Of a DNA stretch of 64,000 bases, positions 9,327 to 64,000 are shown piece after piece. The stretch lies in the NCBI GenBank assembly GCA_030549335.1, contig JAUKPH010000022.1:620001-684000 (forward strand), given 5' to 3'. Origin of the DNA: Pontederia crassipes. Taxonomy: Eukaryota; Streptophyta; Magnoliopsida; Commelinales; Pontederiaceae. The notes beneath the pieces are model-generated. The model worked only from the letters and a program-made list of their open reading frames with translations, was not told where the DNA came from and ran no database searches. Both the position numbers and the translations under genes were made by a program. Within the stretch, counting starts at the first letter, position 1. Every line of letters begins with the position of its first letter.

Positions 9327-12300
9327 AATACTCTAATCCCCAAGAGCGTTATCTTTGATTGTAACGGTTCAACTTCGGTTTGAAATAGAGTTAAAGTTCT
9401 AAAGATCTATCACCTCCTAGGACACCCAAAGGATGGAATAAGTATCTATAACTTATAGCTTTGAACCTTACTCTAAGACTCTAATCCCCAAGAGCGTTAT
9501 CTTTGATTGTAATGGTTCAACTACGGTTTGAAATAGAGTTAAAGTTCTAAAGATCTATCACCTCTTAGGGTACCCAGACGTTGTAATAAGTATCTATAAC
9601 TTATAGCTTTGAACCTTACTCTAAGACTCTAATCCCCAAGAGCGTTATCATTGATTGTAACGGTTCAACTTCGGTCTGAAATAGAGTTAAAGTTCTAAAG
9701 ATCTATCACCTCTTAGGACACCCAAAGGTTGTAATAAGTATCTATAACTTATAGCTTTGAACCTTACTCTAAGACTCTAATCCCCAAGATCGTTATCTTT
9801 GATTGTAACGGTTCAACTTCGGTTTGAAATAGAGTTAAAGTTCTAAAGATCTGTCACCTCTTAGGGCACCCAAAGGTTGTAATAAGTATCTATAAATTAT
9901 AGCTTTGAACCTTACTCTAAGACTCTAATCCCCAAGAGCGTTATCTTTGATTGTAACGGTTCAACTTCGGTTTGAAATAGAGTTAAAGTTCTAAAGATCT
10001 ATCACCTCTTAGGGCACCCAAAGGTTGTAATAAGTATCTATAACTTATAGCTTTGAACCTTACTCAAAGTCTCTAATGCCCAAGAGCGTTATCTTTGATT
10101 GTAACGGTTCAACTTCGGTTTGAAATAGAGTTAAAGAACTAAAGATCTATCACCTCTTAGGACACCGAAAGGTTGTAATAAATATCTATAAATTATAGCT
10201 TTGAACCTTACTCTAAGACTCTGATCCCCAAGAGCGTTATCTTTGATTGTAACGGTTCAACTTCGGTTTGAAATAGAGTTAAAGTTCTAAAGATCTATCA
10301 CCTCTTAGGGCACCCAAAGGTTGTAATAAGTATCTATAACTTATAGCTTTGAACCTTACTCTAAGACTCTAATCCCCAAGAGCGTTATCTTTGATTGTAA
10401 CGGTTCAACTTCGGTTTGAAATAGAGTTAAAGTTCTAAAGATCTATCACCTCTTAGGGCACCCAAAGGTTGTAATAAGTATCTATAACTTATAGCTTTCA
10501 ACCTTACTCTAATACTCTAATCCCCAAGAGCGTTATCATTGATTGTAACGGTTCAACTTCGGTTTGAAATAGAGTTAAAGTTCTAAAGATCTATTACCTC
10601 TTAGGGCACCCAAAGGTTGTAATAAGTATCTATAACTTATAGCTTTGAACCTTACTCAAAGACTCTAATCCCCAAGAGCGTTATCTTTGATTGTAACGGT
10701 TCAACTTCGGTTTGAAAAAGAGTTAAAGTTCTAAAGATCTATCACATCTTAGGGCACCCAAAGGTTGTAATAAGTATCTATAACTTATAGATTTGTACCT
10801 TACTCTAATACTCTAATCCCCAAGAGCGTTATCTTTGATTGTAACGGTTCAACTTCGGTTTGAAATAGAGTTAAAGTTCTAAAGATCTATCACCTCCGAG
10901 GACACCCAAAGGTTGTAATAAGTGTCTATAACTTATAGCTTTGAACCTAACTCTAAGACTCTAATCCCCAAGAGCGTTATCTTTGATTGTAACGGTTCAA
11001 CTTAGGTTTGAAATAGAGTTAAAGTTCTAAAGATCTATCACCTCTTAGGGCACCCAAAGGTTGTAATAAGTATCTATAACTTATAGCTTTGAACCTTACT
11101 CTAAGACTCTAATCCCCAAGAGCGTTATCTTTGATTGTAACGGTTCAACTTCGGTTTGAAATAGAGTTAAAGTACTAAAGATCTATCTTCTCTTAGGGCA
11201 CCCAATGGTTGTAATAAGTATCTATAACTTATAGCTTTGAACCTTACTCTAATACTCTAATCCCCAAGAGCGTTATCTTTGATTGTAACGGTTCAACTTC
11301 GGTTTGAAATAGAGTTAAAGTTCTAAAGATCTATCACCTCTTAGGGCACCCAAAGGTTGTAATAAGTATCTAAAACTTATAGCTTTGAACCTTACTCAAA
11401 GTCTCTAATCCCCATGAGCGTTATCGTTGATTGTAACGGTTCAACTTCGGTTTGAAATAGAGTTAAAGTTCTAAAGATCTATAACCTCTTAGGGCACCCA
11501 AAGGTTGTAATAAGTATCTATAAATTATAGCTTTGAACCTTACTCTAATACTCTAATCCCCAAGAGCGTTATCTTTGATTGTAACGGTTCAACTTCGGTT
11601 TGAAATAGAGTTAAAGTTCTAAAGATCTATCACCTCCTACGACACCCAAAGGATGGAATAAGTATCTATAACTTATAGCTTTGAACCTTACTCTAAGACT
11701 CTAATCCCCAAGAGCGTTATCTTTGATTGTAATGGTTCAACTACGGTTTGAAATAGAGTTAAAGTTCTAAAGATCTATCACCTCTTAGGGTACCCAGACG
11801 TTGTAATAAGTATCTATAACTTATAGCTTTGAACCTTACTCTAAGACTCTAATCCCCAAGAGCGTTATCATTGATTGTAACGGTTCAACTTCGGTCTGAA
11901 ATAGAGTTAAAGTTCTAAAGATCTATCACCTCTTAGGACACCCAAAGGTTGTAATAAGTATCTATAACTTATAGCTTTGAACCTTACTCTAAGACTCTAA
12001 TCCCCAAGATCGTTATCTTTGATTGTAACGGTTCAACTTCGGTTTGAAAGAGTTAAAGTTCTAAAGATCTGTCACCTCTTAGGGCACCCAAAGGTTGTAA
12101 TAAGTATCTATAAATTATAGCTTTGAACCTTACTCTAAGACTCTAATCCCCAAGAGCGTTATCTTTGATTGTAACGGTTCAACTTCGGTTTGAAATAGAG
12201 TTAAAGTTCTAAAGATCTATCACCTCTTAGGGCACCCAAAGGTTGTAATAAGTATCTATAACTTATAGCTTTGAACCTTACTCAAAGTCTCTAATGCCCA

Positions 12301-41600: not shown

Positions 41601-44030
41601 CGTTATCTTTGATTGTAACGGTTCAACTTCGGTTTGAAATAGAGTTAAAGTTCTAAAGATCTATCACCTCTTAGGGCACCCAAAGGTTGTAATAAGTATC
41701 TATAACTTATAGCTTTGAACCTTACTCAAAGTCTCTAATCCCCAAGAGCGTTATCTTTGATTGTAACGGTTCAACTTCGGTTTGAAATAGAGTTAAAGTT
41801 CTAAAGATCTATCACCTCTTAGGACAACCAAAGGTTGTAATAAGTATCTATAACTTATAGCTTTGAACCTTACTCTAAGACTCTAAACCCCAAGAGCGTT
41901 ATCTTTGATTGTAACGGTTCAACTTCGGTTTGAAATAGAGTTAAAGTTCTAAAGATCTATCACATCTTAGGGCACCCAAAGGTTGTAATTAGTATCTATA
42001 ACTTATAGATTTGAACCTTACTCTAATACTCTAATCCCCAAAAGCGTTATCTTTGATTGTAACGGTTCAACTTCGGTTTGAAATAGAGTTAAAGTTCTAA
42101 AGATCTATCACTTCCTAGGACACCCAAAGGTTGTAATAAGTGTCTATAACTTATAGCTTTGAACCTAACTCTAAGACTCTAATCCCCAAGAGCGTTATCT
42201 TTGATAGTAACGGTTCAACTTAGGTTTGAAATAGAGTTAAAGTTCTAAAGATCTATCACCTCTTAGGGCACCCAAAGGTTGTAATAAGTATCTATAACTT
42301 ATAGCTTTGAACCTTACTCTAAGACTCTAATCCCCAAGAGCGTTATCTTTGATTGTAACGGTTCAACCTCGGTTTGAAATAGAGTTAAAGTTCTAAAGAT
42401 CTATCTTCTCTTAGGGCACCCAATGGTTGTAATAAGTATCTATAACTTATAGCTTTGAACCTTACTCTAATACTCTAATCCCCAAGAGCGTTATCTTTGA
42501 TTGTAACGGTTCAACTTCGGTTTGAAATAGAGTTAAAGTTCTAAAGATCTGTCACCTCTTAGGGCGCCCAAAGGTTGTAATAAGTATCTATAAATTATAG
42601 CTTTGAACCTTACTCTAAGACTCTAATCCCCAAGAGCGTTATCTTTGATTGTAACGGTTCAACTTCGGTTTGAAATAGAGTTAAAGTTCTAAAAATCTAT
42701 CACCTCTTAGGGCACCCAAACGTTGTAATAAGTATCCATAACTTATAGCTTTGAACCTTACTCTAAGACTCTAATCCCCAAGAGCATTATCTTTGATTGT
42801 AACGGTTCAACTTCGGTTTGAAATAGAGTTAAAGTTCAAAAGATCTATCACCTCTTAGGGCACCCAAAGGTTGTAATAAGTATCTATAACTTATAGCTTT
42901 CAACCTTACTCTAATACTCTAATCCCCAAGAGCGTTATCATTGATTGTAACGGTTCAACTTCGGTTTGAAATAGAGTTAAAGTTCTAAAGATCTATCACC
43001 TCTTAGGACACCCAAAGGTTGTAATAAGTATCTATAACTTATAGCTTTGAACCTTACTCTAAGACTCTAATCCCCAAGAGCGCTATCTTTGATTGTAACG
43101 GTTCAACTTCGGTTCGAAATAGAGTTAAAGTTCTAAAGATCAATCACCTCTTAGGACACCCAAAGGTTGTAATAAGTATCTATAACTTATAGCTTTGAAC
43201 CTAACTCTAAGACTCTTATCCCCAAGAGCTTTATCATTGATTGTAACGGTTCAACTTCGGTTTGAAATAGAGTTAAAGTTCTAAAGATCTATCACCTCTT
43301 AGGACACCCAAACGATGTAATAAGTATCTATAAATTATAGCTTTGAACCTTACTCTAAGACTCTAATCCCCAAGAGCGTTATCTTTGATTGTAACGGTTC
43401 AACTTCGGTTTGAAATAGAGTTAAAGTTCTAAAGATCTATCACCTCTTAGGGCACCCAAAGGTTGTAATAAGTATCTATAACTTATAGCTTTGAACCTTA
43501 CTCTAAGACTCTAATCCCCAAGATCGTTATCTTTGATTGTAACGGTTCAATTTCGGTTTGAAATAGAGTTAAAGTTCTAAAGATCTATCACCTCTTAGGG
43601 CACCCAAAGGTTGTAATAAGTATCTATAACTTATAGCTTTGAACCTTACTCTAAGAGTCTAATCCCCAAGAACGTTATCTTTGAATGTAACGGTTCAACT
43701 TCGGTTTGAAATAGAGTTAAAGTTCTAAAGATCTATCACATCTTAGGGCACCCAAAGGTTGTAATTAGTATCTATAACTTATAGATTTGAACCTTACTCT
43801 AATACTCTAATCCCCAAGAGCGTTATCTTTGATTGTAACGGTTCAACTTCGGTTTGAAATAGAGTTAAAGTTCTAAAGATCTATCACTTCCTAGGACACC
43901 CAAAGGTTGTAATAAGTGTCTATAACTTATAGCTTTGAACCTAACTCTAAGACTCTAATCCCCAAGAGCGTTATCTTTGATTGTAACGGTTCAACTTAGG
44001 TTTGAAATAGAGTTAAAGTTCTAAAGATCT
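32655..44030 (+). repeat. 27-monomer higher-order repeat (3,995 bp), about 2.85 copies
   Basis: Period 3,995 bp = 27 x 148 - 1. Register is exact at every marker tested: the six-T variant (monomers at 32,712, 36,707 and 40,702), the AATGG/CGATTT monomer (33,303, 37,298 and 41,293), CTTCCTAGG (34,121, 38,116 and 42,111; and again 35,897, 39,892 and 43,887). Copies are almost identical; by eye I noted only isolated changes near 36,308, 42,206 and 43,083. Each unit contains an internal duplication: the series CTTCCTAGG, GTGTCTATAAC, AGGTTTG, CCCAATGG, GGGCGCCC, GAGCATT appears twice, 11 to 12 monomers apart. The third copy leaves the pattern near 44,030, where it has a CACCTCTTAGGG monomer that copies one and two lack at this point. 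Confidence 0.9.
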
Positions 44031-44339
44031 ATCACCTCTTAGGGCACCCAAAGGTTGTAATAAGTATCTATAACTTATAGCTTTGAACCTTACTCTAAGA
44101 CTCTAATCCCCAAGAGCGTTATCTTTGATTGTAACGGTTCAACTTCGGTTTGAAATAGAGTTAAAGTTCTAAAGATCTATCTTCTCTTAGGGCACCCAAT
44201 GGTTGTAATAAGTATCTATAACTTATAGCTTTGAGCCTTACTCTAATACTCTAATCCCCAAGAGCGTTATCTTTGATTGTAACGGTTCAACTTCGGTTTG
44301 AAATAGAGTTAAAGTTCTAAAGATCTATCACTTCCTAGG

Positions 44340-46144
44340 ACACCCAAAGGTTGTAATAAGTATCTATAACTTATAGCTTTGAACCTTACTCTAAGACTCT
44401 AATCCCCAAGAGCGTTATGTTTGATTGTAACGGTTCAACTTCGGTTTGAAATAGAGTTAAAGTTCTAAAGATCTATCACCTCTTAGGGCGCCCAAAGGTT
44501 GTAATAAGTATCTATAAATTATAGCTTTGAACCTTACTCTAAGACTCTAATCCCCAAGAGCGTTATCTTTGATTGTAACGGTTCAACTTCGGTTTGAAAT
44601 GGAGTTAAAGTTCTAAAGATCTATCACCTCTTAGGGCACCCAAACGTTGTAATAAGTATCTATAACTTATAGCTTTGAACCTTACTCTAAGACTCTAATC
44701 CCCAAGAGCATTATCTTTGATTGTAACGGTTCAACTTCGGTTTGAAATAGAGTTAAAGTTCAAAAGATCTATCACCTCTTAGGGCACCCAAAGGTTGTAA
44801 TAAGTATCTATAACTTATAGCTTTCAACCTTACTCTAATACTTTAATCCCCAAGAGCGTTATCATTGATTGTAACGGTTCAACTTCGGTTTGAAATAGAG
44901 TTAAAGTTCTAAAGATCTATCACCTCTTAGGACACCCAAAGGTTGTAATAAGTATCTATAACTTATAGCTTTGAACCTTACTCTAAGACTCTAATCCCCA
45001 AGAGCGTTATCTTTGATTGTAACGGTTCAACTTCGGTTCGAAATAGAGTTAAAGTTCTAAAGATCAATCACCTCTTAGGACACCCAAAGGTTGTAATAGG
45101 TATCTATAACTTATAGCTTTGAACCTAACTCTAAGACTCTTATCCCCAAGAGCTTTATCATTGATTGTAACGGTTCAACTTCGGTTTGAAATAGAGTTAA
45201 AGTTCTAAAGATCTATCACCTCTTAGGACACCCAAAGGTTGTAATAAGTATCTATAACTTATAGCTTTGAACCTTACTCTAAGACTCTAATCCCCAAGAG
45301 CGTTATCTTTGATTGTAACGGTTCAACTTCGGTTCGAAATAGAGTTAAAGTTCTAAAGATCAATCACCTCTTAGGACACCCAAAGGTTGTAATAAGTATC
45401 TATAACTTATAGCTTTGAACCTTACTCTAAGACTCTAATCCCCAAGAGCGTTATCTTTGATTGTAACGGTTCAACTTCGGTTCGAAATAGAGTTAAAGTT
45501 CTAAAGATCAATCACCTCTTAGGACACCCAAAGGTTGTAATAAGTATCTATAACTTATAGCTTTGAACCTAACTCTAAGACTCTAATCCCCAAGAGCGTT
45601 ATCTTTGATTGTAATGGTTGAACTACGGTTTGAAATAGAGTTAAAGTTCTAAAGATTTATCACCTCTTAGGGCACCCAGACGTTGTAATAAGTATCTATA
45701 ACTTATAGCTTTTAACCTTACTCTAAGACTCTAATCCCCAAGAGCGTTATCTTTGATTGTAACGGTTCAACTTCGGCTTGAAATAGAGTTAAAGTACTAA
45801 AGATCTATCACCTCTTAGGACACCCAAAGGTTGTAATAAATATCTATAACTTATAGCTTTGAACCTTACTCTAAGACTCTAATCCCCAAGAGCGTTATCT
45901 TTGATTGTAACGGTTCAACTTCGGTTTGAAATAGAGTTAAAGTTCTAAAGATCTATCACCTCTTAGGGCACCCAAAGGTTGTAATAAGTATTTATAACTT
46001 ATAGCTTTGAACCTTACTCTAAGACTCTAATCCCCAAGATCGTTATCTTTGATTGTAACGGTTCAACTTCGGTTTGAAATAGAGTTAAAGTTCTAAAGTT
46101 CTATCAGCTCTTAGGGCACCCAAAGGTTGTAATAAGTATCTATA
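44340..46144 (+). repeat. Copy of the block upstream of the 27-monomer repeat, ending at the inversion
   Basis: The block matches about 31,020-32,680. The offset is 13,317 bp early on (GAAATGGAG at 31,283 and 44,600) and 13,465 bp later (the GGTTGAACTACGG monomer at 32,120 and 45,585; CAAGATCG at 32,564 and 46,029), because this copy has one extra TTCGAAAT monomer at about 45,290-45,440. The same block therefore sits on both sides of the 27-monomer array. Its last monomer has the private changes AAAGTTCTATCAGCTC and is cut at position 116 by the inversion. Confidence 0.85.
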
Positions 46145-46178
46145 AGTTATAGATACTTATTACAACCTTTGGGTGCCC
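46114..46178. repeat. Head-to-head inversion junction: 65-bp perfect palindrome
   Basis: The array changes strand here. Bases 46,114-46,144 and 46,148-46,178 are perfect reverse complements (31 bp each) around a 3-base centre, AGT, at 46,145-46,147. Outside the perfect part the arms still pair, with mismatches at 46,113/46,179, 46,107/46,185, 46,105/46,187 and 46,099/46,193. In monomer coordinates the forward copy runs to position 116 and the inverted copy resumes at 119. The monomer's own dyad (CTATA at 112-116, TATAG at 120-124) gives 5 bp of homology (46,140-46,144) within which the switch cannot be placed more finely. This fits fold-back or template switching at a short inverted repeat. 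No foreign sequence lies at the joint. Confidence 0.95.
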
Positions 46179-47220
46179 AAAGAGGTAATAGATCTTTAGA
46201 ACTTTAACTCTATTTCAAACCGAAGTTGAACCGTTACAATCAAAGATAACGCTCTTGGGGATTAGAGTCTTAGAGTAAGGTTCAAAGCTATAAGTTATAG
46301 ATACTTATTACAACCATTCGGTGCCCTAAGAGGTGATAGATCATTAGAACTTTAACTCTATTTCAAACCGAAGTTGAAACGTTACAATCAATGATAACGC
46401 TCTTGGGGATTAGAGACTTTGAGTAAGGTTCAAAGCTATAAGTTATAGATACTTATTAGAACCTTTGGGTGCCCTAAGAGGTGATAGATCTTTAGAACTT
46501 TAACTCTATTTCAAACCGAAATTGAACCGTTACAATCAAAGATAACGCTCTTGGGGATTAGAGTCTTAGAGTAAGGTTCAAAGCTATAATTTATAGATAC
46601 TTATTACAACCTTTGGGTGCCCTAAGAGGCGATAGATCTTTAGAACTTTAACTCTATTTCAAACCGAAGTTGAACCGTTACAATCAATGATAACGCTCTT
46701 GGGGATTAGAGTCTTAGAGTAAGGTTCAAAGTTATAAGTTATAGATACTTATTACATCCTTTGGGTGTCCTAGGAGGTGATAGATCTTTAGAACTTTAAC
46801 TCTATTTCAAACCGAAGTTGAACCGTTACAATCAAAGATAACGCTCTTGGGGATTAGAGTATTAGAGTTAGGTTAAAAGCTATAAGTTATAGATACTTAT
46901 TACAACCTTTCGGTGTCCTAAGAGGTGATAGATCATTAGAACTTTAACTCTATTTCAAACCGAAGTTGAACCGTTACAATCAATGATAAAGCTCTTGGGG
47001 ATTAGAGACTTTGAGTAAGGTTCAAAGTTATAAGTTATAGATACTTATTACAACCTTTGGGTGCCCTAAGAGGTGATAGATCTTTAGAACTTTAACTCTA
47101 TTTCAAACCGAAGTTGAACCGTTACAATCAAAGATAACGCTCTTGGGGATTAGAGTCTTAGTGTAAGGTTCAAAGCTATAATTTATAGATACTTATTACA
47201 ACCTTTGGGTGCCCTATGAG
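46145..47220 (-). repeat. Junction-proximal monomers of the inverted arm
   Basis: About seven monomers lie between the inversion and the 15-monomer repeat. They are less regular than the rest of this arm and include private changes such as CCATTCGGTGCC near 46,315, GTTGAAACG near 46,372, AAATTGAACC near 46,519 and GAGGCGATAG near 46,627. Bases 46,735-47,220 match 48,511-48,996 at an offset of 1,776 bp (12 monomers), for example GGTTAAAAGC near 46,872 and 48,648. The first monomer has GGTGCCCAAAGAG in place of GGTGCCCTAAGAG. Confidence 0.75.
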
Positions 47221-50200
47221 GTGATAGATCATTAGAACTTTAACTCTATTTGAAACCGAAGTTGAACCGTTACAATCAATGATAACGCTCTTGGGAATTA
47301 GAGACTTTGAGTAAGGTTCAAAGTTATAAGTTATAGATACTTATTACAACCTTTGGGTGCCCTAAGAGGTGATAGATCTTTAGAACTTTAACTCTATTTC
47401 AAACCGAAGTTGAACCGTTACAATCAATGATAACGCTCTTGGGGATTAGAGTCTTAGAGTTAGGTTCAAAGCTATAAGTTATAGATACTTATTACAACCT
47501 TTGGGTGTCCTAAGAGGTGATTGATCTTTAGAACTTTAACTCTATTTCGAACCGAAGTTGAACCGTTACAATCAAAGATAACGCTCTTGGGAATTAGAGA
47601 CTTTGAGTAAGGTTCAAAGTTATAAGTTATAGATACTTATTACAACCTTTGGGTGCCCTAAGAGGTGATAGATCTTTAGAACTTTAACTCTATTTCAAAC
47701 CGAAGTTGAACCGTTACAATCAAAGATAACGCTCTTGGGGATTAGAGTCTTAGTGTAAGGTTCAAAGCTATAATTTATAGATACTTATTACAACCTTTGG
47801 GTGCCCTATGAGGTGATAGATCATTAGAACTTTAACTCTATTTGAAACCGAAGTTGAACCGTTACAATCAATGATAACGCTCTTGGGAATTAGAGACTTT
47901 GAGTAAGGTTCAAAGTTATAAGTTATAGATACTTATTACAACCTTTGGGTGCCCTAAGAGGTGATAGATCTTTAGAACTTTAACTCTATTTCAAACCGAA
48001 GTTGAACCGTTACAATCAAAGATAACGCTCTTGGGGATTAGAGTCTTAGTGTAAGGTTCAAAGCTATAATTTATAGATACTTATTACAACCTTTGGGTGC
48101 CCTATGAGGTGATAGATCATTAGAACTTTAACTCTATTTGAAACCGAAGTTGAACCGTTACAATCAATGATAACGCTCTTGGGAATTAGAGACTTTGAGT
48201 AAGGTTCAAAGTTATAAGTTATAGATACTTATTACAACCTTTGGGTGCCCTAAGAGGTGATAGATCTTTAGAACTTTAACTCTATTTCAAACCGAAGTTG
48301 AACCGTTACAATCAATGATAACGCTCTTGGGGATTAGAGTCTTAGAGTTAGGTTCAAAGCTATAAGTTATAGACACTTATTACAACCATTGGGTGTCCTA
48401 GGAGGTGATAGATCTTTAGAACTTTAACTCTATTTCAAACCGAAGTTGAACCGTTACAATCAATGATAACGCTCTTGGGGATTAGAGTCTTAGAGTAAGG
48501 TTCAAAGCTATAAGTTATAGATACTTATTAAATCCTTTGGGTGTCCTAGGAGGTGATAGATCTTTAGAACTTTAACTCTATTTCAAACCGAAGTTGAACC
48601 GTTACAATCAAAGATAACGCTCTTGGGGATTAGAGTATTAGAGTTAGGTTAAAAGCTATAAGTTATAGATACTTATTACAACCTTTCGGTGTCCTAAGAG
48701 GTGATAGATCATTAGAACTTTAACTCTATTTCAAACCGAAGTTGAACCGTTACAATCAATGATAAAGCTCTTGGGGATTAGAGACTTTGAGTAAGGTTCA
48801 AAGCTATAAGTTATAGATACTTATTACAACCTTTGGGTGCCCTAAGAGGTGATAGATCTTTAGAACTTTAACTCTATTTCAAACCGAAGTTGAACCGTTA
48901 CAATCAAAGATAACGCTCTTGGGGATTAGAGTCTTAGTGTAAGGTTCAAAGCTATAATTTATAGATACTTATTACAACCTTTGGGTGCCCTATGAGGTGA
49001 TAGATCTTTAGAACTTTAACTCTATTTCAAACCGAAGTTGAACCGTTACAATCAATGATAACGCTCTTGGGGATTAGAGTCTTAGAGTAAGGTTCAAAGC
49101 TATAATTTATAGATACTTATTACAACCTTTGGGTGCCCTACGAGGTGATAGATCTTTAGAAGTTTAACTCTATTTCAAACCGAAGTTGAACCGTTACAAC
49201 CAATGATAACGCTCTTGGGGATTAGAGTCTTAGAGTAAGGTTTAAAGCTATAAGTTATAGATACTTATTACATCCTTTGGGTGTCCAAGGAGGTGATAGA
49301 TCTTTAGAACTTTAACTCTATTTCAAACCGAAGTTGAACCGTTACGATCAAAGATAACGCTCTTGGGGATTAGAGTCTTAGAGTAAGGTTCAAAGCTATA
49401 AGTTATAGATACTTATTACAACCTTTGGGTGCCCTAAGAAGTGATAGATCATTAGAACTTTAACTCTATTTGAAACCGAAGTTGAACCGTTACAATCAAT
49501 GATAACGCTCTTGGGAATTAGAGACTTTGAGTAAGGTTCAAAGTTATAAGTTATAGATACTTATTACAACCTTTGGGTGCCCTAAGAGGTGATAGATCTT
49601 TAGAACTTTAACTCTATTTCAAACCGAAGTTGAACCGTTACAATCAATGATAACGCTCTTGGGGATTAGAGTCTTAGAGTTAGGTTCAAAGCTATAAGTT
49701 ATAGATACTTATTACAACCTTTGGGTGTCCTAAGAGGTGATTGATCTTTAGAACTTTAACTCTATTTCGAACCGAAGTTGAACCGTTACAATCAAAGATA
49801 ACGCTCTTGGGAATTAGAGACTTTGAGTAAGGTTCAAAGTTATAAGTTATAGATACTTATTACAACCTTTGGGTGCCCTAAGAGGTGATAGATCTTTAGA
49901 ACTTTAACTCTATTTCAAACCGAAGTTGAACCGTTACAATCAAAGATAACGCTCTTGGGGATTAGAGTCTTAGTGTAAGGTTCAAAGCTATAATTTATAG
50001 ATACTTATTACAACCTTTGGGTGCCCTATGAGGTGATAGATCATTAGAACTTTAACTCTATTTGAAACCGAAGTTGAACCGTTACAATCAATGATAACGC
50101 TCTTGGGAATTAGAGACTTTGAGTAAGGTTCAAAGTTATAAGTTATAGATACTTATTACAACCTTTGGGTGCCCTAAGAGGTGATAGATCTTTAGAACTT

Positions 50201-51865
50201 TAACTCTATTTCAAACCGAAGTTGAACCGTTACAATCAAAGATAACGCTCTTGGGGATTAGAGTCTTAGTGTAAGGTTCAAAGCTATAATTTATAGATAC
50301 TTATTACAACCTTTGGGTGCCCTATGAGGTGATAGATCATTAGAACTTTAACTCTATTTGAAACCGAAGTTGAACCGTTACAATCAATGATAACGCTCTT
50401 GGGAATTAGAGACTTTGAGTAAGGTTCAAAGTTATAAGTTATAGATACTTATTACAACCTTTGGGTGCCCTAAGAGGTGATAGATCTTTAGAACTTTAAC
50501 TCTATTTCAAACCGAAGTTGAACCGTTACAATCAATGATAACGCTCTTGGGGATTAGAGTCTTAGAGTTAGGTTCAAAGCTATAAGTTATAGACACTTAT
50601 TACAACCATTGGGTGTCCTAGGAGGTGATAGATCTTTAGAACTTTAACTCTATTTCAAACCGAAGTTGAACCGTTACAATCAATGATAACGCTCTTGGGG
50701 ATTAGAGTCTTAGAGTAAGGTTCAAAGCTATAAGTTATAGATACTTATTAAATCCTTTGGGTGTCCTAGGAGGTGATAGATCTTTAGAACTTTAACTCTA
50801 TTTCAAACCGAAGTTGAACCGTTACAATCAAAGATAACGCTCTTGGGGATTAGAGTATTAGAGTTAGGTTAAAAGCTATAAGTTATAGATACTTATTACA
50901 ACCTTTCGGTGTCCTAAGAGGTGATAGATCATTAGAACTTTAACTCTATTTCAAACCGAAGTTGAACCGTTACAATCAATGATAAAGCTCTTGGGGATTA
51001 GAGACTTTGAGTAAGGTTCAAAGCTATAAGTTATAGATACTTATTACAACCTTTGGGTGCCCTAAGAGGTGATAGATCTTTAGAACTTTAACTCTATTTC
51101 AAACCGAAGTTGAACCGTTACAATCAAAGATAACGCTCTTGGGGATTAGAGTCTTAGTGTAAGGTTCAAAGCTATAATTTATAGATACTTATTACAACCT
51201 TTGGGTGCCCTATGAGGTGATAGATCTTTAGAACTTTAACTCTATTTCAAACCGAAGTTGAACCGTTACAATCAATGATAACGCTCTTGGGGATTAGAGT
51301 CTTAGAGTAAGGTTCAAAGCTATAATTTATAGATACTTATTACAACCTTTGGGTGCCCTACGAGGTGATAGATCTTTAGAAGTTTAACTCTATTTCAAAC
51401 CGAAGTTGAACCGTTACAACCAATGATAACGCTCTTGGGGATTAGAGTCTTAGAGTAAGGTTTAAAGCTATAAGTTATAGATACTTATTACATCCTTTGG
51501 GTGTCCAAGGAGGTGATAGATCTTTAGAACTTTAACTCTATTTCAAACCGAAGTTGAACCGTTACGATCAAAGATAACGCTCTTGGGGATTAGAGTCTTA
51601 GAGTAAGGTTCAAAGCTATAAGTTATAGATACTTATTACAACCTTTGGGTGCCCTAAGAAGTGATAGATCATTAGAACTTTAACTCTATTTGAAACCGAA
51701 GTTGAACCGTTACAATCAATGATAACGCTCTTGGGAATTAGAGACTTTGAGTAAGGTTCAAAGTTATAAGTTGTAGATACTTATTACAACCTTTGGGTGC
51801 CCTAAGAGGTGATAGATCTTTAGAACTTTAACTCTATTTCAAACCGAAGTTGAACCGTTACAATC
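47221..51865 (-). repeat. 15-monomer higher-order repeat (2,220 bp), about 2.1 copies
   Basis: Bases 47,281-49,440 and 49,501-51,660 look identical base for base in a by-eye comparison. Markers include TTGATCTTTAG with TTTCGAACC (47,521 and 49,741), CTTATTAAATCC (48,531 and 50,751), GGTTAAAAGC, TGTCCAAGGAGG and GTTACGATC. The first clear difference is TTATAG near 49,553 against TTGTAG near 51,773, and the copies part at about 51,866. Because 2,220 is a whole multiple of both 148 and 60, the repeat is easy to verify. It is the youngest-looking large duplication in the window. Confidence 0.92.
47589..48330 (-). repeat. Nested dimer (296 bp) in the 15-monomer repeat
   Basis: Two monomer types alternate here. 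One has GGGAATTAGAGACTTTG and TTATAAGTTATAG; the other has CTTAGTGTAAGG, ATAATTTATAG, CCCTATGAGG and GATCATTAG with TTTGAAACC. GGGAATT starts at 47,589, 47,885 and 48,181, each 296 bp apart, with an earlier one at 47,293 whose second half differs. The same dimer run recurs in the next 15-monomer copy at 49,809-50,550. This is the shortest higher-order period seen in the window. Confidence 0.85.
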
Positions 51866-54800
51866 AAAGATAACGCTCTTGGGGATTGGAATCTTAGAGT
51901 AAGGTTCAAAGCTATAATTTATAGATACTTATGACAACCTTTGGGTGCCCTAAGAGGTGATAGATCTTTAGAACTTTAACTCTATTTCAAACCGAAGTTG
52001 AACCGTTACAATCAATGATAACGCTCTTGGGGATTAGAGTCTTAGAGTTAGGTTCAAAGCTATAAGTTATAGACACTTATTACAACCTTTGGGTGTCCTA
52101 GGAGGTGATAGATCTTTAGAACTTTAACTCTATTTCAAACCGAAGTTGAACCGTTACAATCAATGATAACGCTCTTGGGAATTAGAGACTTTGAGTAAGG
52201 TTCAAAGTTATAAGTCATAGATACTTATTACAACCTTTGGGTGCCCTAAGAGGTGATAGATCTTTAGAACTTTAACTCTATTTCAAACCGAAGTTGAACC
52301 GTTACAATCAAAGATAACGCTCTTGGGGATTAGAATCTTAGAGTAAGGTTCAAAGCTATAATTTATAGATACTTATTACAACCTTTGGGTGCCCTAAGAG
52401 GTGATAGATCTTTAGAACTTTAACTCTATTTCAAACCGAAGTTGAACCGTTACAATCAATGATAACGCTCTTGGGGATTAGAGTCTTAGAGTAAGGTTCA
52501 AAGCTATAATTTATAGATACTTATTACAACCTTTGGGTGCCCTAAGAGGTGATAGATCTTTAGAAGTTTAACTCTATTTCAAACCGAAGTTGAACCGTTG
52601 CAACCAAAGATAACGCTCTTGGGAATTAGAGACTTTGAGTAAGGTTCAAAGTTATAAGTCATAGATACTTATTACAACCTTTGGGTGCCCTAAGAGGTGA
52701 TAGATCTTTAGAACTTTAACTCTATTTCAAACCGAAGTTGAACCATTACAATCAAAGATAACGCTCTTGGGGATTAGAGTCTTAGTGTAAGGTTCAAAGC
52801 TATAATTTATAGATACTTATTACAACCTTTGGGTGCCCTAAGAGGTGATAGATCTTTAGAAGTTTAACTCTATTTCAAACCGAAGTTGAACCGTTACAAC
52901 CAATGATAACGCTCTTGGGAATTAGAGACTTTGAGTAAGGTTCAAAGTTATAAGTCATAGATACTTATTACAACCTTTGGGTGCCCTAAGAGGTGATAGA
53001 TCTTTAGAACTTTAACTCTCTTTCAAACCGAAGTTGAACCGTTACAATCAAAGATAACGCTCTTGGGGATTAGAGTCTTAGTGTAAGGTTCAAAGCTATA
53101 ATTTATAGATACTTATTACAACCTTTGGGTGCCCTATGAGGTGATAGATCTTTAGAACTTTAACTCTATTTCAAACCGAAGTTGAACCGTTACAATCAAT
53201 GATAACGCTCTTGGGGATTAGAGTCTTAGAGTAAGGTTCAAAGCTATAATTTATAGATACTTATTACAACCTTTGGGTGCCCTAAGAGGTGATAGATCTT
53301 TAGAAGTTTAACTCTATTTCAAACCGAAGTTGAACCGTTACAACCAATGATAACGCTCTTGGGGATTAGAGTCTTAGAGTAAGGTTCAAAGCCATAAGTT
53401 ATAGATACTTATTACATCCTTTGGGTGTCCAAGGAGGTGATAGATCTTTAGAACTTTAACTCTATTTCAAACCGAAGTTGAACCGTTACGATCAAAGATA
53501 ACGCTCTTGGGGATTAGAGTCTTAGAGTAAGGTTCAAAGCTATAAGTTATAGATACTTATTACAACCTTTGGGTGCCCTAAGAGGTGATAGATCATTAGA
53601 ACTTTAACTCTATTTGAAACCGAAGTTGAACCGTTACAATCAATGATAACGCTCTTGGGAATTAGAGACTTTGAGTAAGGTTCAAAGTTATAAGTCATAG
53701 ATACTTATTACAACCTTTGGGTGCCCTAAGAGGTGATAGATCTTTAGAACTTTAACTCTATTTCAAACCGAAGTTGAACCGTTACAATCAAAGATAACGC
53801 TCTTGGGGATTAGAGTCTTTGAGTAAGGTTCAAAGCTATAAGTTATAGACACTTATTACAACCTTTGGGTGCCCTAAGAGGTGATAGATCTTTAGAACTT
53901 TAACTCTATTTCATACCGAAGTTGAACCGTTACAATCAAAGATAACGCTTTTGGGGATTAGAGACTTAGAGTAAGGTTCAAAGCTATAAGTTATAGATAC
54001 TTATTACAACCTTTGGGTGCCCTAAGAGGTGATAGATCTTTAAAACTTTAACTCTATTTCAAACCGAAGTTGAACCGTTACAATCAAAGATAACGCTCTT
54101 GGGGATTAGAGTATTAGAGTTAGGTTCAAAGCTATAAGTTATAGATACTTATTACAACCTTTGGGTGCCCTAAGATGTGATAGATCTTTAGAACTTTAAC
54201 TCTATTTCAAACCGAAGTTGAACCGTTACAATCAAAGATAACGCTCTTGGGGATTAGAGTCTTAGAGTAAGGTTCAAAGCTATAAGTTATAGATACTTAT
54301 TACAACCTTTGGGTGCCCTAAGAGGTAATAGATCTTTAGAACTTTAACTCTATTTCAAACCGAAGTTGAACCGTTACAATCAAAGATAACGCTCTTGGGG
54401 ATTAGAGTCTTAGAGTAAGGTTCAAAGCTATAAGTTTTAGATACTTATTACAACCATTCGGTGCCCTAAGAGGTGATAGATCATTAGAACTTTAACTCTA
54501 TTTCATACCGAAGTTGAACCGTTACAATCAATGATAACGCTCTTGGGGATTAGAGACTTTGTGTAAGGTTCAAAGTTATAAGTTATAGATACTTATTACA
54601 ACCTTTGGGTGCCCTAAGAGGTGATAGATCTTTAGAACTTTAACTCTATTTCAAACCGAAGTTGAACCGTTACAATCAAAGATAACGCTCTTGGGGATTA
54701 GAGTCTTAGAGTAAGGTTCAAAGCTATAAGTTATAGATACTTATTACAACCTTTGGGTGCCCTAAGAGGTAATAGATCTTTAGAACTTTAACTCTATTTC

Positions 54801-57800
54801 AAACCGAAGTTGAACCGTTACAATCAAAGATAACGCTCTTGGGGATTAGAGTCTTAGAGTAAGGTTCAAAGCTATAAGTTTTAGATACTTATTACAACCA
54901 TTCGGTGCCCTAAGAGGTGATAGATCATTAGAACTTTAACTCTATTTCATACCGAAGTTGAACCGTTACAATCAATGATAACGCTCTTGGGGATTAGAGA
55001 CTTTGTGTAAGGTTCAAAGCTATAAGTTATAGATACTTATTACAACCTTTGGGTGCCCTAAGAGGTGATAGATCTTTAGAACTTTAACTCTATTTCAAAC
55101 CGAAGTTGAACCGTTACAATCAAAGATAACGCTCTTGGGGATTAGAGTCTTAGAGTAAGGTTCAAAGCTATAATTTATAGATACTTATTACAACCTTTGG
55201 GTGCCCTAAGATGTGATAGATCTTTAGAACTTTAACTCTATTTCAAACCGAAGTTGAACCGTTACAATCAAAGATAACGCTCTTGGGGATTAGAGTCTTA
55301 GAGTAAGGTTCAAAGCTATAATTTATAGATACTTATTACAACCTTTGGGTGCCCTAAGAGGTGATAGATCTTTAGAAGTTTAACTCTATTTCAAACCGAA
55401 GTTGAACCGTTACAACCAATGATAACGCTCTTGGGGATTAGAGTCTTAGAGTAAGGTTCAAAGCCATAAGTTATAGATACTTATTACATCCTTTGGGTGT
55501 CCAAGGAGGTGATAGATCTTTAGAACTTTAACTCTATTTCAAACCGAAGTTGAACCGTTACGATCAAAGATAACGCTCTTGGGGATTAGAGTCTTAGAGT
55601 AAGGTTCAAAGCTATAAGTTATAGATACTTATTACAACCTTTGGGTGCCCTAAGAGGTGATAGATCATTAGAACTTTAACTCTATTTGAAACCGAAGTTG
55701 AACCGTTACAATCAATGATAACGCTCTTGGGAATTAGAGACTTTGAGTAAGGTTCAAAGTTATAAGTCATAGATACTTATTACAACCTTTGGGTGCCCTA
55801 AGAGGTGATAGATCTTTAGAACTTTAACTCTATTTCAAACCGAAGTTGAACCGTTACAATCAAAGATAACGCTCTTGGGGATTAGAGTCTTTGAGTAAGG
55901 TTCAAAGCTATAAGTTATAGACACTTATTACAACCTTTGGGTGCCCTAAGAGGTGATAGATCTTTAGAACTTTAACTCTATTTCATACCGAAGTTGAACC
56001 GTTACAATCAAAGATAACGCTTTTGGGGATTATAGACTTAGAGTAAGGTTCAAAGCTATAAGTTATAGATACTTATTACAACCTTTGGGTGCCCTAAGAG
56101 GTGATAGATCTTTAAAACTTTAACTCTATTTCAAACCGAAGTTGAACCGTTACAATCAAAGATAACGCTCTTGGGGATTAGAATCTTAGAGTAAGGTTCA
56201 AAGCTATAATTTATAGATACTTATTACAACCTTTGGGTGCCCTAAGAGGTGATAGATCTTTAGAACTTTAACTCTATTTCAAACCGAAGTTGAACCGTTA
56301 CAATCAATGATAACGCTCTTGGGGATTAGAGTCTTAGAGTAAGGTTCAAAGCTATAATTTATGGATACTTATTACAACCTTTGGGTGCCCTAAGAGGTGA
56401 TAGATCTTTAGAAGTTTAACTCTATTTCAAACCGAAGTTGAACCGTTACAACCAATGATAACGCTCTTGGGAATTAGAGACTTTGAGTAAGGTTCAAAGT
56501 TATAAGTCATAGATACTTATTACAACCTTTGGGTGCCCTAAGAGGTGATAGATCTTTAGAACTTTAACTCTATTTCAAACCGAAGTTGAACCGTTACAAT
56601 CAAAGATAATGCTCTTGGGGATTAGAGTCTTAGTGTAAGGTTCAAAGCTATAATTTATAGATACTTATTACAACCTTTGGGTGCCCTAAGAGGTGATAGA
56701 TCTTTAGAAGTTTAACTCTATTTCAAACCGAAGTTGAGCCGTTACAACCAATGATAACGCTCTTGGGAATTAGAGACTTTGAGTAAGGTTCAAAGTTATA
56801 AGTCATAGATACTTATTACAACCTTTGGGTGCCCTAAGAAGTGATAGATCATTAGAACTTTAACTCTATTTGAAACCGAAGTTGAACCGTTACAATCAAT
56901 GATAACGCTCTTGGGAATTAGAGACTTTGAGTAAGGTTCAAAGTTATAAGTTGTAGATACTTATTACAACCTTTGGGTGCCCTAAGAGGTGATAGATCTT
57001 TAGAACTTTAACTCTATTTCAAACCGAAGTTGAACCGTTACAATCAAAGATAACGCTCTTGGGGATTAGAATCTTAGAGTAAGGTTCAAAGCTATAATTT
57101 ATAGATACTTATTACAACCTTTGGGTGCCCTAAGAGGTGATAGATCTTTAGAACTTTAACTCTATTTCAAACCGAAGTTGAACCGTTACAATCAATGATA
57201 ACGCTCTTGGGGATTAGAGTCTTAGAGTTAGGTTCAAAGCTATAAGTTATAGACACTTATTACAACCTTTGGGTGTCCTAGGAGGTGATAGATCTTTAGA
57301 ACTTTAACTCTATTTCAAACCGAAGTTGAACCGTTACAATCAATGATAACGCTCTTGGGAATTAGAGACTTTGAGTAAGGTTCAAAGTTATAAGTCATAG
57401 ATACTTATTACAACCTTTGGGTGCCCTAAGAGGTGATAGATCTTTAGAACTTTAACTCTATTTCAAACCGAAGTTGAACCGTTACAATCAAAGATAACGC
57501 TCTTGGGGATTAGAATCTTAGAGTAAGGTTCAAAGCTATAATTTATAGATACTTATTACAACCTTTGGGTGCCCTAAGAGGTGATAGATCTTTAGAACTT
57601 TAACTCTATTTCAAACCGAAGTTGAACCGTTACAATCAATGATAACGCTCTTGGGGATTAGAGTCTTAGAGTAAGGTTCAAAGCTATAATTTATAGATAC
57701 TTATTACAACCTTTGGGTGCCCTAAGAGGTGATAGATCTTTAGAAGTTTAACTCTATTTCAAACCGAAGTTGAACCGTTGCAACCAAAGATAACGCTCTT

Positions 57801-60800
57801 GGGAATTAGAGACTTTGAGTAAGGTTCAAAGTTATAAGTCATAGATACTTATTACAACCTTTGGGTGCCCTAAGAGGTGATAGATCTTTAGAACTTTAAC
57901 TCTATTTCAAACCGAAGTTGAACCGTTACAATCAAAGATAACGCTCTTGGGGATTAGAGTCTTAGTGTAAAGTTCAAAGCTATAATTTATAGATACTTAT
58001 TACAACCTTTGGGTGCCCTAAGAGGTGATAGATCTTTAGAAGTTTAACTCTATTTCAAACCGAAGTTGAACCGTTACAACCAATGATAACGCTCTTGGGA
58101 ATTAGAGACTTTGAGTAAGGTTCAAAGTTATAAGTCATAGATACTTATTACAACCTTTGGGTGCCCTAAGAGGTGATAGATCTTTAGAACTTTAACTCTA
58201 TTTCAAACCGAAGTTGAACCGTTACAATCAAAGATAACGCTCTTGGGGATTAGAGTCTTAGTGTAAGGTTCAAAGCTATAATTTATAGATACTTATTACA
58301 ACCTTTGGGTGCCCTATGAGGTGATAGATCTTTAGAACTTTAACTCTATTTCAAACCGAAGTTGAACCGTTACAATCAATGATAACGCTCTTGGGGATTA
58401 GAGTCTTAGAGTAAGGTTCAAAGCTATAATTTATAGATACTTATTACAACCTTTGGGTGCCCTAAGAGGTGATAGATCTTTAGAAGTTTAACTCTATTTC
58501 AAACCGAAGTTGAACCGTTACAACCAATGATAACGCTCTTGGGGATTAGAGTCTTAGAGTAAGGTTCAAAGCCATAAGTTATAGATACTTATTACATCCT
58601 TTGGGTGTCCAAGGAGGTGATAGATCTTTAGAACTTTAACTCTATTTCAAACCGAAGTTGAACCGTTACGATCAAAGATAACGCTCTTGGGGATTAGAGA
58701 CTTAGAGTAAGGTTCAAAGCTATAAGTTATAGATACTTATTACAACCTTTGGGTGCCCTAAGAGGTGATAGATCATTAGAACTTTAACTCTATTTGAAAC
58801 CGAAGTTGAACCGTTACAATCAATGATAACGCTCTTGGGAATTAGAGACTTTGAGTAAGGTTCAAAGTTATAAGTCATAGATACTTATTACAACCTTTGG
58901 GTGCCCTAAGAGGTGATAGATCTTTAGAACTTTAACTCTATTTCAAACCGAAGTTGAACCGTTACAATCAAAGATAACGCTCTTGGGGATTAGAGTCTTT
59001 GAGTAAGGTTCAAAGCTATAAGTTATAGACACTTATTACAACCTTTGGGTGCCCTAAGAGGTGATAGATCTTTAGAACTTTAACTCTATTTCATACCGAA
59101 GTTGAACCGTTACAATCAAAGATAACGCTTTTGGGGATTAGAGACTTAGAGTAAGGTTCAAAGCTATAAGTTATAGATACTTATTACAACCTTTGGGTGC
59201 CCTAAGAGGTGATAGATCTTTAAAACTTTAACTCTATTTCAAACCGAAGTTGAACCGTTACAATCAAAGATAACGCTCTTGGGGATTAGAGTATTAGAGT
59301 TAGGTTCAAAGCTATAAGTTATAGATACTTATTACAACCTTTGGGTGCCCTAAGATGTGATAGATCTTTAGAACTTTAACTCTATTTCAAACCGAAGTTG
59401 AACCGTTACAATCAAAGATAACGCTCTTGGGGATTAGAGTCTTAGAGTAAGGTTCAAAGCTATAAGTTATAGATACTTATTACAACCTTTGGGTGCCCTA
59501 AGAGGTAATAGATCTTTAGAACTTTAACTCTATTTCAAACCGAAGTTGAATCGTTACAATCAAAGATAACGCTCTTGGGGATTAGAGTCTTAGAGTAAGG
59601 TTCAAAGCTATAAGTTTTAGATACTTATTACAACCATTCGGTGCCCTAAGAAGTGATAGATCATTAGAACTTTAACTCTATTTCATACCGAAGTTGAACC
59701 GTTACAATCAATGATAACGCTCTTGGGGATTAGAGACTTTGTGTAAGGTTCAAAGCTATAAGTTATAGATACTTATTACAACCTTTGGGTGCCCTAAGAG
59801 GTGATAGATCTTTAGAACTTTAACTCTATTTCAAACCGAAGTTGAACTGTTACAATCAAATATAACGCTCTTGGGGATTAGAGTCTTAGAGTAAGGTTCA
59901 AAGCTATAAGTTATAGATACTTATTACAACCTTTGGGTGCCCTAAGAGGTAATAGATCTTTAGAACTTTAACTCTATTTCAAACCGAAGTTGAACCGTTA
60001 CAATCAAAGATAACGCTCTTGGGGATTAGAGTCTTAGAGTAAGGTTCAAAGCTATAAGTTTTAGATACTTATTACAACCATTCGGTGCCCTAAGAGGTGA
60101 TAGATCATTAGAACTTTAACTCTATTTCATACCGAAGTTGAACCGTTACAATCAATGATAACGCTCTTGGGGATTAGAGACTTTGTGTAAGGTTCAAAGC
60201 TATAAGTTATAGATACTTATTACAACCTTTGGGTGCCCTAAGAGGTGATAGATCTTTAGAACTTTAACTCTATTTCAAACCGAAGTTGAACCGTTACAAT
60301 CAAAGATAACGCTCTTGGGGATTAGAGTCTTAGAGTAAGGTTCAAAGCTATAATTTATAGATACTTATTACAACCTTTGGGTGCCCTAAGATGTGATAGA
60401 TCTTTAGAACTTTAACTCTATTTCAAACCGAAGTTGAACCGTTACAGTCAAAGATAACGCTCTTGGGGATTAGAGTCTTAGAGTAAGGTTCAAAGCTATA
60501 ATTTATAGATACTTATTACAACCTTTGGGTGCCCTAAGAGGTGATAGATCTTTAGAAGTTTAACTCTATTTCAAACCGAAGTTGAACCGTTACAACCAAT
60601 GATAACGCTCTTGGGGATTAGAGTCTTAGAGTAAGGTTCAAAGCCATAAGTTATAGATACTTATTACATCCTTTGGGTGTCCAAGGAGGTGATAGATCTT
60701 TAGAACTTTAACTCTATTTCAAACCGAAGTTGAACCGTTACGATCAAAGATAACGCTCTTGGGGATTAGAGTCTTAGAGTAAGGTTCAAAGCTATAAGTT

Positions 60801-61590
60801 ATAGATACTTATTACAACCTTTGGGTGCCCTAAGAGGTGATAGATCATTAGAACTTTAACTCTATTTGAAACCGAAGTTGAACCGTTACAATCAATGATA
60901 ACGCTCTTGGGAATTAGAGACTTTGAGTAAGGTTCAAAGTTATAAGTCATAGATACTTATTACAACCTTTGGGTGCCCTAAGAGGTGATAGATCTTTAGA
61001 ACTTTAACTCTATTTCAAACCGAAGTTGAACCGTTACAATCAAAGATAACGCTCTTGGGGATTAGAGTCTTTGAGTAAGGTTCAAAGCTATAAGTTATAG
61101 ACACTTATTACAACCTTTGGGTGCCCTAAGAGGTGATAGATCTTTAGAACTTTAACTCTATTTCATACCGAAGTTGAACCGTTACAATCAAAGATAACGC
61201 TTTTGGGGATTATAGACTTAGAGTAAGGTTCAAAGCTATAAGTTATAGATACTTATTACAACCTTTGGGTGCCCTAAGAGGTGATAGATCTTTAAAACTT
61301 TAACTCTATTTCAAACCGAAGTTGAACCGTTACAATCAAAGATAACGCTCTTGGGGATTAGAATCTTAGAGTAAGGTTCAAAGCTATAATTTATAGATAC
61401 TTATTACAACCTTTGGGTGCCCTAAGAGGTGATAGATCTTTAGAACTTTAACTCTATTTCAAACCGAAGTTGAACCGTTACAATCAATGATAACGCTCTT
61501 GGGGATTAGAGTCTTAGAGTAAGGTTCAAAGCTATAATTTATGGATACTTATTACAACCTTTGGGTGCCCTAAGAGGTGATAGATCTTTA
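51640..61590 (-). repeat. 35-monomer higher-order repeat (5,180 bp), about 1.9 copies
   Basis: Period 5,180 bp = 35 x 148. Markers are GCCCTAAGAA (51,651 and 56,831), TTGTAGATAC (near 51,771 and 56,951), TAAGTCATAG, TTTCATACCG (53,911 and 59,091), TAAGTTTTAG (54,431 and 59,611), AGCCATAAG (near 55,462 and 60,642), TATAGACTTAG (near 56,031 and 61,211) and TTTATGGATAC (near 56,349 and 61,529). Roughly ten scattered single-base differences were seen between copies, for example near 51,889, 52,770, 53,020, 53,521, 54,371 and 55,267. The copies separate at about 56,412 and 61,592. Confidence 0.9.
54290..55170 (-). repeat. Nested trimer (444 bp) in the 35-monomer repeat
   Basis: Three-monomer period: GAGGTAATAG at 54,324 and 54,768, TAAGTTTTAG at 54,431 and 54,875, CCATTCGGTGCC, TTTCATACCG and GACTTTGTGTAAGG all repeat after 444 bp. 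About two copies are present. The same arrangement occurs 5,180 bp on, at about 59,470-60,350, so it predates the 35-monomer duplication. Confidence 0.85.
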
Positions 61591-64000
61591 GAACTTTAAC
61601 TCTATTTCATACCGAAGTTGAACCGTTACAATCAAAGATAACGCTTTTGGGGATTAGAGACTTAGAGTAAGGTTCAAAGCTATAAGTTATAGATACTTAT
61701 TACAACCTTTGGGTGCCCTAAGAGGTGATAGATCATTAGAACTTTAACTCTATTTGAAACCGAAGTTGAACCGTTACAATCAATGATAACGCTCTTGGGA
61801 ATTAGAGACTTTGAGTAAGGTTCAAAGTTATAAGTCATAGATACTTATTACAACCTTTGGGTGCCCTAAGAGGTGATAGATCTTTAGAACTTTAACTCTA
61901 TTTCAAACCGAAGTTGAACCGTTACAATCAAAGATAACGCTCTTGGGGATTAGAGTCTTTGAGTAAGGTTCAAAGCTATAAGTTATAGACACTTATTACA
62001 ACCTTTGGGTGCCCTAAGAGGTGATAGATCTTTAGAACTTTAACTCTATTTCATACCGAAGTTGAACCGTTACAATCAAAGATAACGCTTTTGGGGATTA
62101 GAGACTTAGAGTAAGGTTCAAAGCTATAAGTTATAGATACTTATTACAACCTTTGGGTGCCCTAAGAGGTGATAGATCTTTAAAACTTTAACTCTATTTC
62201 AAACCGAAGTTGAACCGTTACAATCAAAGATAACGCTCTTGGGGATTAGAGTATTAGAGTTAGGTTCAAAGCTATAAGTTATAGATACTTATTACAACCT
62301 TTGGGTGCCCTAAGATGTGATAGATCTTTAGAACTTTAACTCTATTTCAAACCGAAGTTGAACCGTTACAATCAAAGATAACGCTCTTGGGGATTAGAGT
62401 CTTAGAGTAAGGTTCAAAGCTATAAGTTATAGATACTTATTACAACCTTTGGGTGCCCTAAGAGGTAATAGATCTTTAGAACTTTAACTCTATTTCAAAC
62501 CGAAGTTGAATCGTTACAATCAAAGATAACGCTCTTGGGGATTAGAGTCTTAGAGTAAGGTTCAAAGCTATAAGTCTTAGATACTTATTACAACCATTCG
62601 GTGCCCTAAGAGGTGATAGATCATTAGAACTTTAACTCTATTTCATACCGAAGTTGAACCGTTACAATCAATGATAACGCTCTTGGGGATTAGAGACTTT
62701 GTGTAAGGTTCAAAGCTATAAGTTATAGATACTTATTACAACCTTTGGGTGCCCTAAGAGGTGATAGATCTTTAGAACTTTAACTCTATTTCAAACCGAA
62801 GTTGAACCGTTACAATCAAAGATAACGCTCTTGGGGATTAGAATCTTAGAGTAAGGTTCAAAGCTATAATTTATAGATACTTATTACAACCTTTGGGTGC
62901 CCTAAGAGGTGATAGATCTTTAGAACTTTAACTCTATTTCAAACCGAAGTTGAACCGTTACAATCAATGATAACGCTCTTGGGGATTAGAGTCTTAGAGT
63001 AAGGTTCAAAGCTATAATTTGTAGATACTTATTACAACCTTTGGGTGCCCTAAGAGGTGATAGATCTTTAGAAGTTTAACTCTATTTCAAACCGAAGTTG
63101 AACCGTTGCAACCAAAGATAACGCTCTTGGGAATTAGAGACTTTGAGTAAGGTTCAAAGTTATAAGTCATAGATACTTATTACAACCTTTGGGTGCCCTA
63201 AGAGGTGATAGATCTTTAGAACTTTAACTCTATTTCAAACCGAAGTTGAACCGTTACAATCAAAGATAACGCTCTTGGGGATTAGAGTCTTAGTGTAAAG
63301 TTCAAAGCTATAATTTATAGATACTTATTACAACCTTTGGGTGCCCTAAGAGGTGATAGATCTTTAGAAGTTTAACTCTATTTCAAACCGAAGTTGAACC
63401 GTTACAACCAATGATAACGCTCTTGGGAATTAGAGACTTTGAGTAAGGTTCAAAGTTATAAGTCATAGATACTTATTACAACCTTTGGGTGCCCTAAGAG
63501 GTGATAGATCTTTAGAACTTTAACTCTATTTCAAACCGAAGTTGAACCGTTACAATCAAAGATAACGCTCTTGGGGATTAGAGTCTTAGTGTAAGGTTCA
63601 AAGCTATAATTTATAGATACTTATTACAACCTTTGGGTGCCCTATGAGGTGATAGATCTTTAGAACTTTAACTCTATTTCAAACCGAAGTTGAACCGTTA
63701 CAATCAATGATAACGCTCTTGGGGATTAGAGTCTTAGAGTAAGGTTCAAAGCTATAATTTATAGATACTTATTACAACCTTTGGGTGCCCTAAGAGGTGA
63801 TAGATCTTTAGAAGTTTAACTCTATTTCAAACCGAAGTTGAACCGTTACAACCAATGATAACGCTCTTGGGGATTAGAGTCTTAGAGTAAGGTTCAAAGC
63901 CATAAGTTATAGATACTTATTACATCCTTTGGGTGTCCAAGGAGGTGATAGATCTTTAGAACTTTAACTCTATTTCAAATCGAAGTTGAACCGTTACGAT
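61590..64000 (-). repeat. Rearranged partial third unit at the window end
   Basis: After 61,590 the sequence no longer follows the 5,180-bp period. Bases about 61,590-62,790 match 58,640-59,830 at 2,960 bp (20 monomers): TTTCATACCG at 59,091 and 62,051, and GTTGAATCGTTAC at 59,543 and 62,503. From about 62,800 to the end the match is to 57,470-58,670 at 5,328 bp (36 monomers): GTGTAAAGTTC at 57,965 and 63,293, and AGCCATAAG near 58,571 and 63,899. The order of pieces is therefore changed compared with the two preceding units. Confidence 0.8.

Follow-up and report, generated by a model that had tools for sequence, protein, structure and literature searches.

Strand switches in satellite arrays and at short inverted repeats

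An orientation switch inside a satellite array is of a kind already known. In Tribolium madens, the TmSat1 and TmSat2 satellites form opposite-orientation subarrays that can reach tens of kb, and their conserved inversion sites number in the thousands; the authors stated, in the sections of their paper drawn on here, that satellite macro-dyads had until then been documented only in Tribolium (PMC13081366). In yeast, ODIRA generates inverted amplification junctions in which new palindromes are formed on pre-existing short inverted repeats (2–14 bp), the longer ones being preferred (PMC10766183, PMC10766186). According to the part of the report considered, a spacing of 40–80 bp between the repeats is preferred, with leading-strand annealing being suggested for repeats lying nearer to each other (PMC10766183).

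The DNA analyzed here (hereafter, the window) is a 64-kb stretch of Pontederia crassipes that consists over its whole length of a single satellite with a 148-bp monomer, present in both orientations. Each side of the joint between them carries about 17.9 kb or more of oriented array, that is, the several kb expected of inverted subarrays of the Tribolium type. The locus resembles TmSat1/TmSat2 in its opposite-orientation subarrays, and the TmSat monomer subunits also carry inverted repeats, of less than 10 bp (PMC13081366). However, the inversion sites of T. madens are described, in the sections considered, as thousands of conserved copies with diverged subunits, whereas the present locus has one joint, undiverged monomers, and another monomer length (PMC13081366). 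With regard to a recurrence of the Tribolium type, the window offers this one joint, whose two monomers show 4 and 2 differences from the consensus, values that are not above average. The Chio satellite of Chionographis japonica likewise occurs in arrays of mixed orientation, forward and reverse, and its monomers also carry short dyads, but the monomers are 23 and 28 bp long, and the Chio joints are not mapped to a dyad in the portion of the paper considered (PMC10264360). Orientation switches within arrays also occur in primate alpha-satellite, where the long-read support belongs to the primate data; unlike the present case, the one inversion named in the passages considered spans 3.2 Mb, and no placement on a dyad is given there (PMC11062924).

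As in the ODIRA junctions described, the palindrome at the present joint is centered on a pre-existing short inverted repeat (PMC10766183, PMC10766186), namely a dyad found in 372 of the 429 full monomers. The spacing within this dyad is 1 nt, versus the 40–80 bp preferred in the ODIRA report as far as considered (PMC10766183), and the joint thus resembles ODIRA in its use of a repeat, but not in the preferred spacing. With monomer coordinates counted from the start of the dyad (position 1), a 7-bp inverted repeat is located at monomer positions 16–22 and 69–75, which are 46 bp apart by arithmetic, and was not used by the joint.

A satellite of the same unit length, Palv148, has been described in white poplar, where the 148-bp unit forms long non-centromeric arrays, plotted on both strands, with HORs (PMC12046899). 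The two satellites were compared by description, and the likeness is one of unit length, with no claim of identity (PMC12046899). Among five short pieces of the present satellite searched for in the accessible text of that paper, four were absent and one was found only inside an unrelated primer (PMC12046899). Three short pieces had no match in two Populus papers, and six 16-base pieces searched for in literature text were all absent. Literature on 148-bp satellite arrays with an inversion and a centromere gave no match, and the sole match for a 148-bp satellite and a centromere was irrelevant. A tomato satellite offered no parallel in the part of that report considered, where the inverted element is a retrotransposon and not a satellite joint. 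Within the partial coverage of the literature on satellite strand switches and joints, none was mapped to the monomer's own dyad.

The joint between the forward and inverted arrays

TRF delineated two arrays of period 148, one at 1–46152 (311.9 copies) and the other at 46140–63997 (120.7 copies), and a BLAST search with the consensus showed that plus-strand matches end at 46152 and that minus-strand matches begin at 46140. The forward array on the plus strand (1–46145) contains 311 full monomers, and the inverted array on the minus strand (46140–64000), made of the same 148-bp monomer, contains 120 and runs on to the end of the window. Only one strand switch was found in the 64-kb window, with no foreign DNA between the arrays, confirming an earlier reading made from the sequence only, according to which forward monomers meet inverted monomers directly. 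The GC skew changes sign at the joint, and the consensus of the left array is the same as that of the right array. When intervals were anchored on the dyad, the spacing was 148 bp in 301 of the 310 intervals of the left array (eight of the others being of 147 bp and one of 146 bp) and in all 119 intervals of the right array. Rfam gave no match in 44000–48000, the part searched; a 30-base pattern of the satellite had no exact match in viral, bacterial, or archaeal contigs, nor did a 443-base piece of the left array match any plasmid or phage.

At the base level, the joint carries the dyad CTATAA-G-TTATAG (46140–46152), with its symmetry center at G46146. The forward monomer stops after CTATAA (monomer positions 1–6), and the inverted monomer begins at position 7. 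The dyad-center base at position 7 was C in 251 and A in 59 of the 310 monomers of the left array, and C in 83 and A in 36 of the 119 monomers of the right array once these were turned to the same orientation. Since position 7 is C or A in both arrays, the G of the window strand is most simply the C of the inverted array, and the crossover therefore falls within CTATAA (46140–46145), the 6 bp common to both strands. The sequence-only reading had placed the ambiguity in a 5-bp CTATA at 46,140–46,144, one base short of this common stretch. It had also attributed CTATA-NNN-TATAG to every monomer, but the dyad proved to be CTATAA-N-TTATAG and is intact in the 372 monomers mentioned above. Around the joint, a perfect palindrome (46114–46178) has arms of 32 bp and a 1-nt center; the 31-bp arm and 3-base center reported earlier correspond to the predicted hairpin, a 31-bp stem with a 3-nt loop, and not to the perfect arms.

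The arms around the joint are 96% complementary over 245 nt, and the folding energy of the joint's 65-mer, as single-stranded DNA, is −33.8 kcal/mol. This stability is a consequence and not a cause of the joint. The 32-bp perfect arm was rejected as evidence in itself, since at least 26 matching bases upstream of the dyad, as at the joint, are found in 26% of the 37,320 left/right monomer pairs. The region looks like a real joint at which two arrays of the same 148-bp satellite meet head to head.

The monomer dyad and the joining event

When the two joint monomers are included, the dyad is intact in 294 of the 311 monomers on the left and 79 of the 120 on the right. If the same pattern is placed at each of the 148 positions around the monomer, this intactness ranks 20th. 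The most frequent broken form (15/429) is changed at positions 5 and 13; as these two are not pairing partners, it shows no compensatory change. A special conservation of the dyad was thus rejected. Nor is its presence in the monomer unusual, since a dyad with arms of at least 6 and a spacer of at most 3 was present in 20.7% of 2,000 dinucleotide shuffles of the monomer. At the dyad center, position 7, conservation is the third lowest in the whole monomer (78% C, the remainder A).

With one mismatch allowed, the dyad is the longest inverted self-match of the consensus (13 bp), the next distinct one being of 9 bp. The consensus contains 17 maximal inverted matches of 6–7 bp (15 of 6 bp and 2 of 7 bp). 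Two of the 17 belong to the dyad, and another is AGATCT, a perfect 6-bp palindrome at monomer position 106; two non-dyad matches, of 7 bp, exceed the exact 6 bp of the dyad. If all 17 matches were equally likely, the chance of a microhomology joint on the dyad would be about 1 in 8. A microhomology of at least 6 bp is found in 0.55% of the 21,904 (148 × 148) possible inverted joints of the consensus, and the class of the observed joint represents 7 of these 21,904, by arithmetic from the 6-bp match. The placement on the dyad is thus unlikely under blunt random joining, although this is a single post hoc case; one joint cannot show a hotspot, and the case for a dyad mechanism is that of a single joint.

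From what is directly observed, i.e., the joint, its 6-bp homology, the dyad, and the absence of block sharing described below, we infer that two inverted satellite strands were probably joined via the monomer's longest self-complementary match, by template switch or microhomology-mediated end joining, and that the two sides were homogenized separately. The strands would have been joined through the 13-bp CTATAA-N-TTATAG, with 6 bp of exact microhomology, either by a template switch during replication or in a larger inversion sealed by microhomology-mediated end joining. The dyad would have been used as the best inverted homology, not necessarily through hairpin folding: as it is the longest inverted match, a homology-driven inverted joint could choose it without a hairpin, and both microhomology-mediated end joining and strand-to-strand template switching would also pick it. 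If replication had switched at CTATAA from the forward strand to its complement, or if ends had been joined through this stretch, exactly the observed product would result. Each side would then have been homogenized through block duplication, after or before the joining, with no duplication passing the joint.

Alternatively, a nascent or resected 3′ end may have snapped back on the dyad and copied itself, giving an inverted duplication that later diverged. The symmetry center lies exactly on the dyad center, whereas only about 1% of small-offset fold-backs would be centered within half a base of it, and the ODIRA authors propose, in the part of their report considered, a leading-strand self-annealing of closely spaced repeats (PMC10766183). 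However, the hairpin formed by the dyad is predicted to be barely stable, with a minimum free energy of 0 kcal/mol for the 13-mer and −0.7 kcal/mol (z −1.04) for a 21-mer including 4-nt flanks, both as single-stranded DNA. The identity of the center base also constrains such an event: had the forward strand snapped back, the center would still read C or A, whereas a snap-back of the inverted-array strand would give the observed G, so that it works only with the right array as the parent. Moreover, no residual mirror similarity was observed. There are 6 differences between the two joint monomers, and 6 or fewer are found in 40% of left/right pairs; pairing monomers across the joint gives no greater likeness than is seen in left/right pairs generally, and there is thus no trace of a copying of one arm from the other. 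When left and right monomers were compared within the window, no shift between the arrays stood out, and neither arm qualified as a copy of the other, although such a copy would be expected in a fold-back inverted duplication. An old fold-back event with its trace erased by time is conceivable, but overall we regard a fold-back, with the right array as its parent, as unlikely. From the sequence-only proposal of a dyad-seeded fold-back or template switch, the switch on the monomer's dyad with a short homology was retained, and in view of the weak hairpin and the missing trace of a copied arm, the fold-back becomes one option among several.

Variants and blocks on the two sides of the joint

For all comparisons across the joint, monomers were put in forward orientation, and a close block was defined as 6 monomers with at most 5 differences out of 888. 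Close left-left blocks were found in 118 of 12,254 pairs separated by 6–49 monomers, 55 of 11,575 at 50–99, 25 of 9,075 at 100–149, 1 of 6,575 at 150–199, and 5 of 5,671 at 200–305 (i.e., 6 of 12,246 at 150 or more), and close right-right blocks in 56 of 5,995 pairs. None was found among 35,190 left-right pairs, for which the minimum was 23 differences. The minimum was 30 among left-right pairs within 100 monomers (n = 4,656), and distance thus does not explain the missing left-right blocks.

In comparisons between segments, windows with at most 5 differences numbered 17 of 95 between left segments 1 and 2, 4 of 95 between 1 and 3, and 0 of 95 (minimum 6) between 2 and 3, and 0 of 95 between each left segment and the joint-side right segment, with minima of 23, 23, and 29. 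For each left segment compared, seven of the alleles present at 10% or more in the joint-side right segment are missing; six of these alleles (5G, 13A, 27A, 85C, 99C, and 106T) are missing from all three left segments. Conversely, two or three left alleles per segment are missing on the right, and none is missing between left segments. Only 2 monomer haplotypes are common to both arrays, out of 111 left and 53 right, and an identical left monomer exists for 3 of the 120 right monomers. The mean pairwise differences were 6.8 for left-left, 7.1 for right-right, and 7.6 for left-right comparisons. What sets the arrays apart is their variants and blocks and not their base sequence.

This variant divide at the joint is a new result, and it speaks against a recent copy made by fold-back and against an artefact from a mirrored read. 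Satellites are easily misassembled, and a sequencing or assembly artefact, such as a missed-adapter palindromic read, an amplification chimera, or a misjoin, had to be considered. However, the arms already differ in their first monomer, and no block of the right array copies a block of the left array within the window, so that a mirrored read was rejected; furthermore, the 6 bp common at the joint would be too little for an overlap misjoin. A chimera with sequence from outside the window would be compatible with these observations, but overall an artefact is, in our view, unlikely.

A further possibility is that a large inversion or translocation joined, by end joining, two arrays that were already separate and separately homogenized, the dyad merely providing 6 bp of microhomology. 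This would explain at once the near-absence of common haplotypes and blocks, but no reciprocal joint is found within the window, and the exact centering on the dyad would then be a coincidence (2 of 17 matches). We consider it possible, if less than probable, and it overlaps one branch of the favored explanation, the joining of inverted strands via the longest self-complementary match.

Under a definition of block duplication as at least 4 consecutive monomers with at most 1 difference each, such duplications cover 280 of the 311 left and 106 of the 120 right monomers, with examples of 49 monomers at lag 27 on the left and 15 monomers at lag 15 on the right, and 82.6% of the 431 monomers recur in identical form within the window. 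By contrast, the last left and first four right monomers (45992–46744, the end coordinate being obtained by arithmetic from 148-bp units) have no close copy elsewhere in the window, their nearest-neighbor distances being 4, 2, 3, 2, and 3. A nearest neighbor at 2 or more differences was found for 5 of 7 joint-side monomers versus 18 of 431 overall; a hypergeometric test of this clustering ignores the correlation between neighbors, and the 7-monomer window was picked post hoc. The mean nearest-neighbor distance reaches its maximum (2.29) in this stretch, which begins with the last left monomer. A second, lower peak (1.57) is located at left monomers 35–41, counted from 0 (about 5.3–6.3 kb), away from any switch. 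The variants of the last left monomer are 1T, 49T, 108T, and 116G, and those of the first right monomer are 114T and 122T. The five joint monomers differ from the consensus at 4, 2, 7, 3, and 3 positions, which is not above average; as they are no more diverged than others, a great age of the joint does not follow, and they look like typical monomers that were not copied by block duplication.

Joints described at the base level inside homogeneous satellites inform on array rearrangement, and the present one links breakpoint choice to inverted microhomology in a way that can be tested. The sharp variant divide suggests that block duplication works between copies of the same orientation and not across an inverted joint; inversions could therefore set the borders of homogenized domains. 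A broader reading, in which the dyad is a built-in, recurrent strand-switch site and each inverted joint a homogenization wall splitting the array into independently evolving domains, appears doubtful to us.

Finally, two minor features of the arrays were observed. In the right array near the joint (46152–49000), the divergence of monomers from the consensus alternates between low (2) and high (7–8) values, in a dimer-like higher-order pattern. In the left array, nine short monomers are located at 11962, 14624, 19359, 23502, 24537, 30308, 33267, 37262, and 41257, and seven of them carry the same 1-bp deletion at monomer position 23, which probably spread through block duplication.
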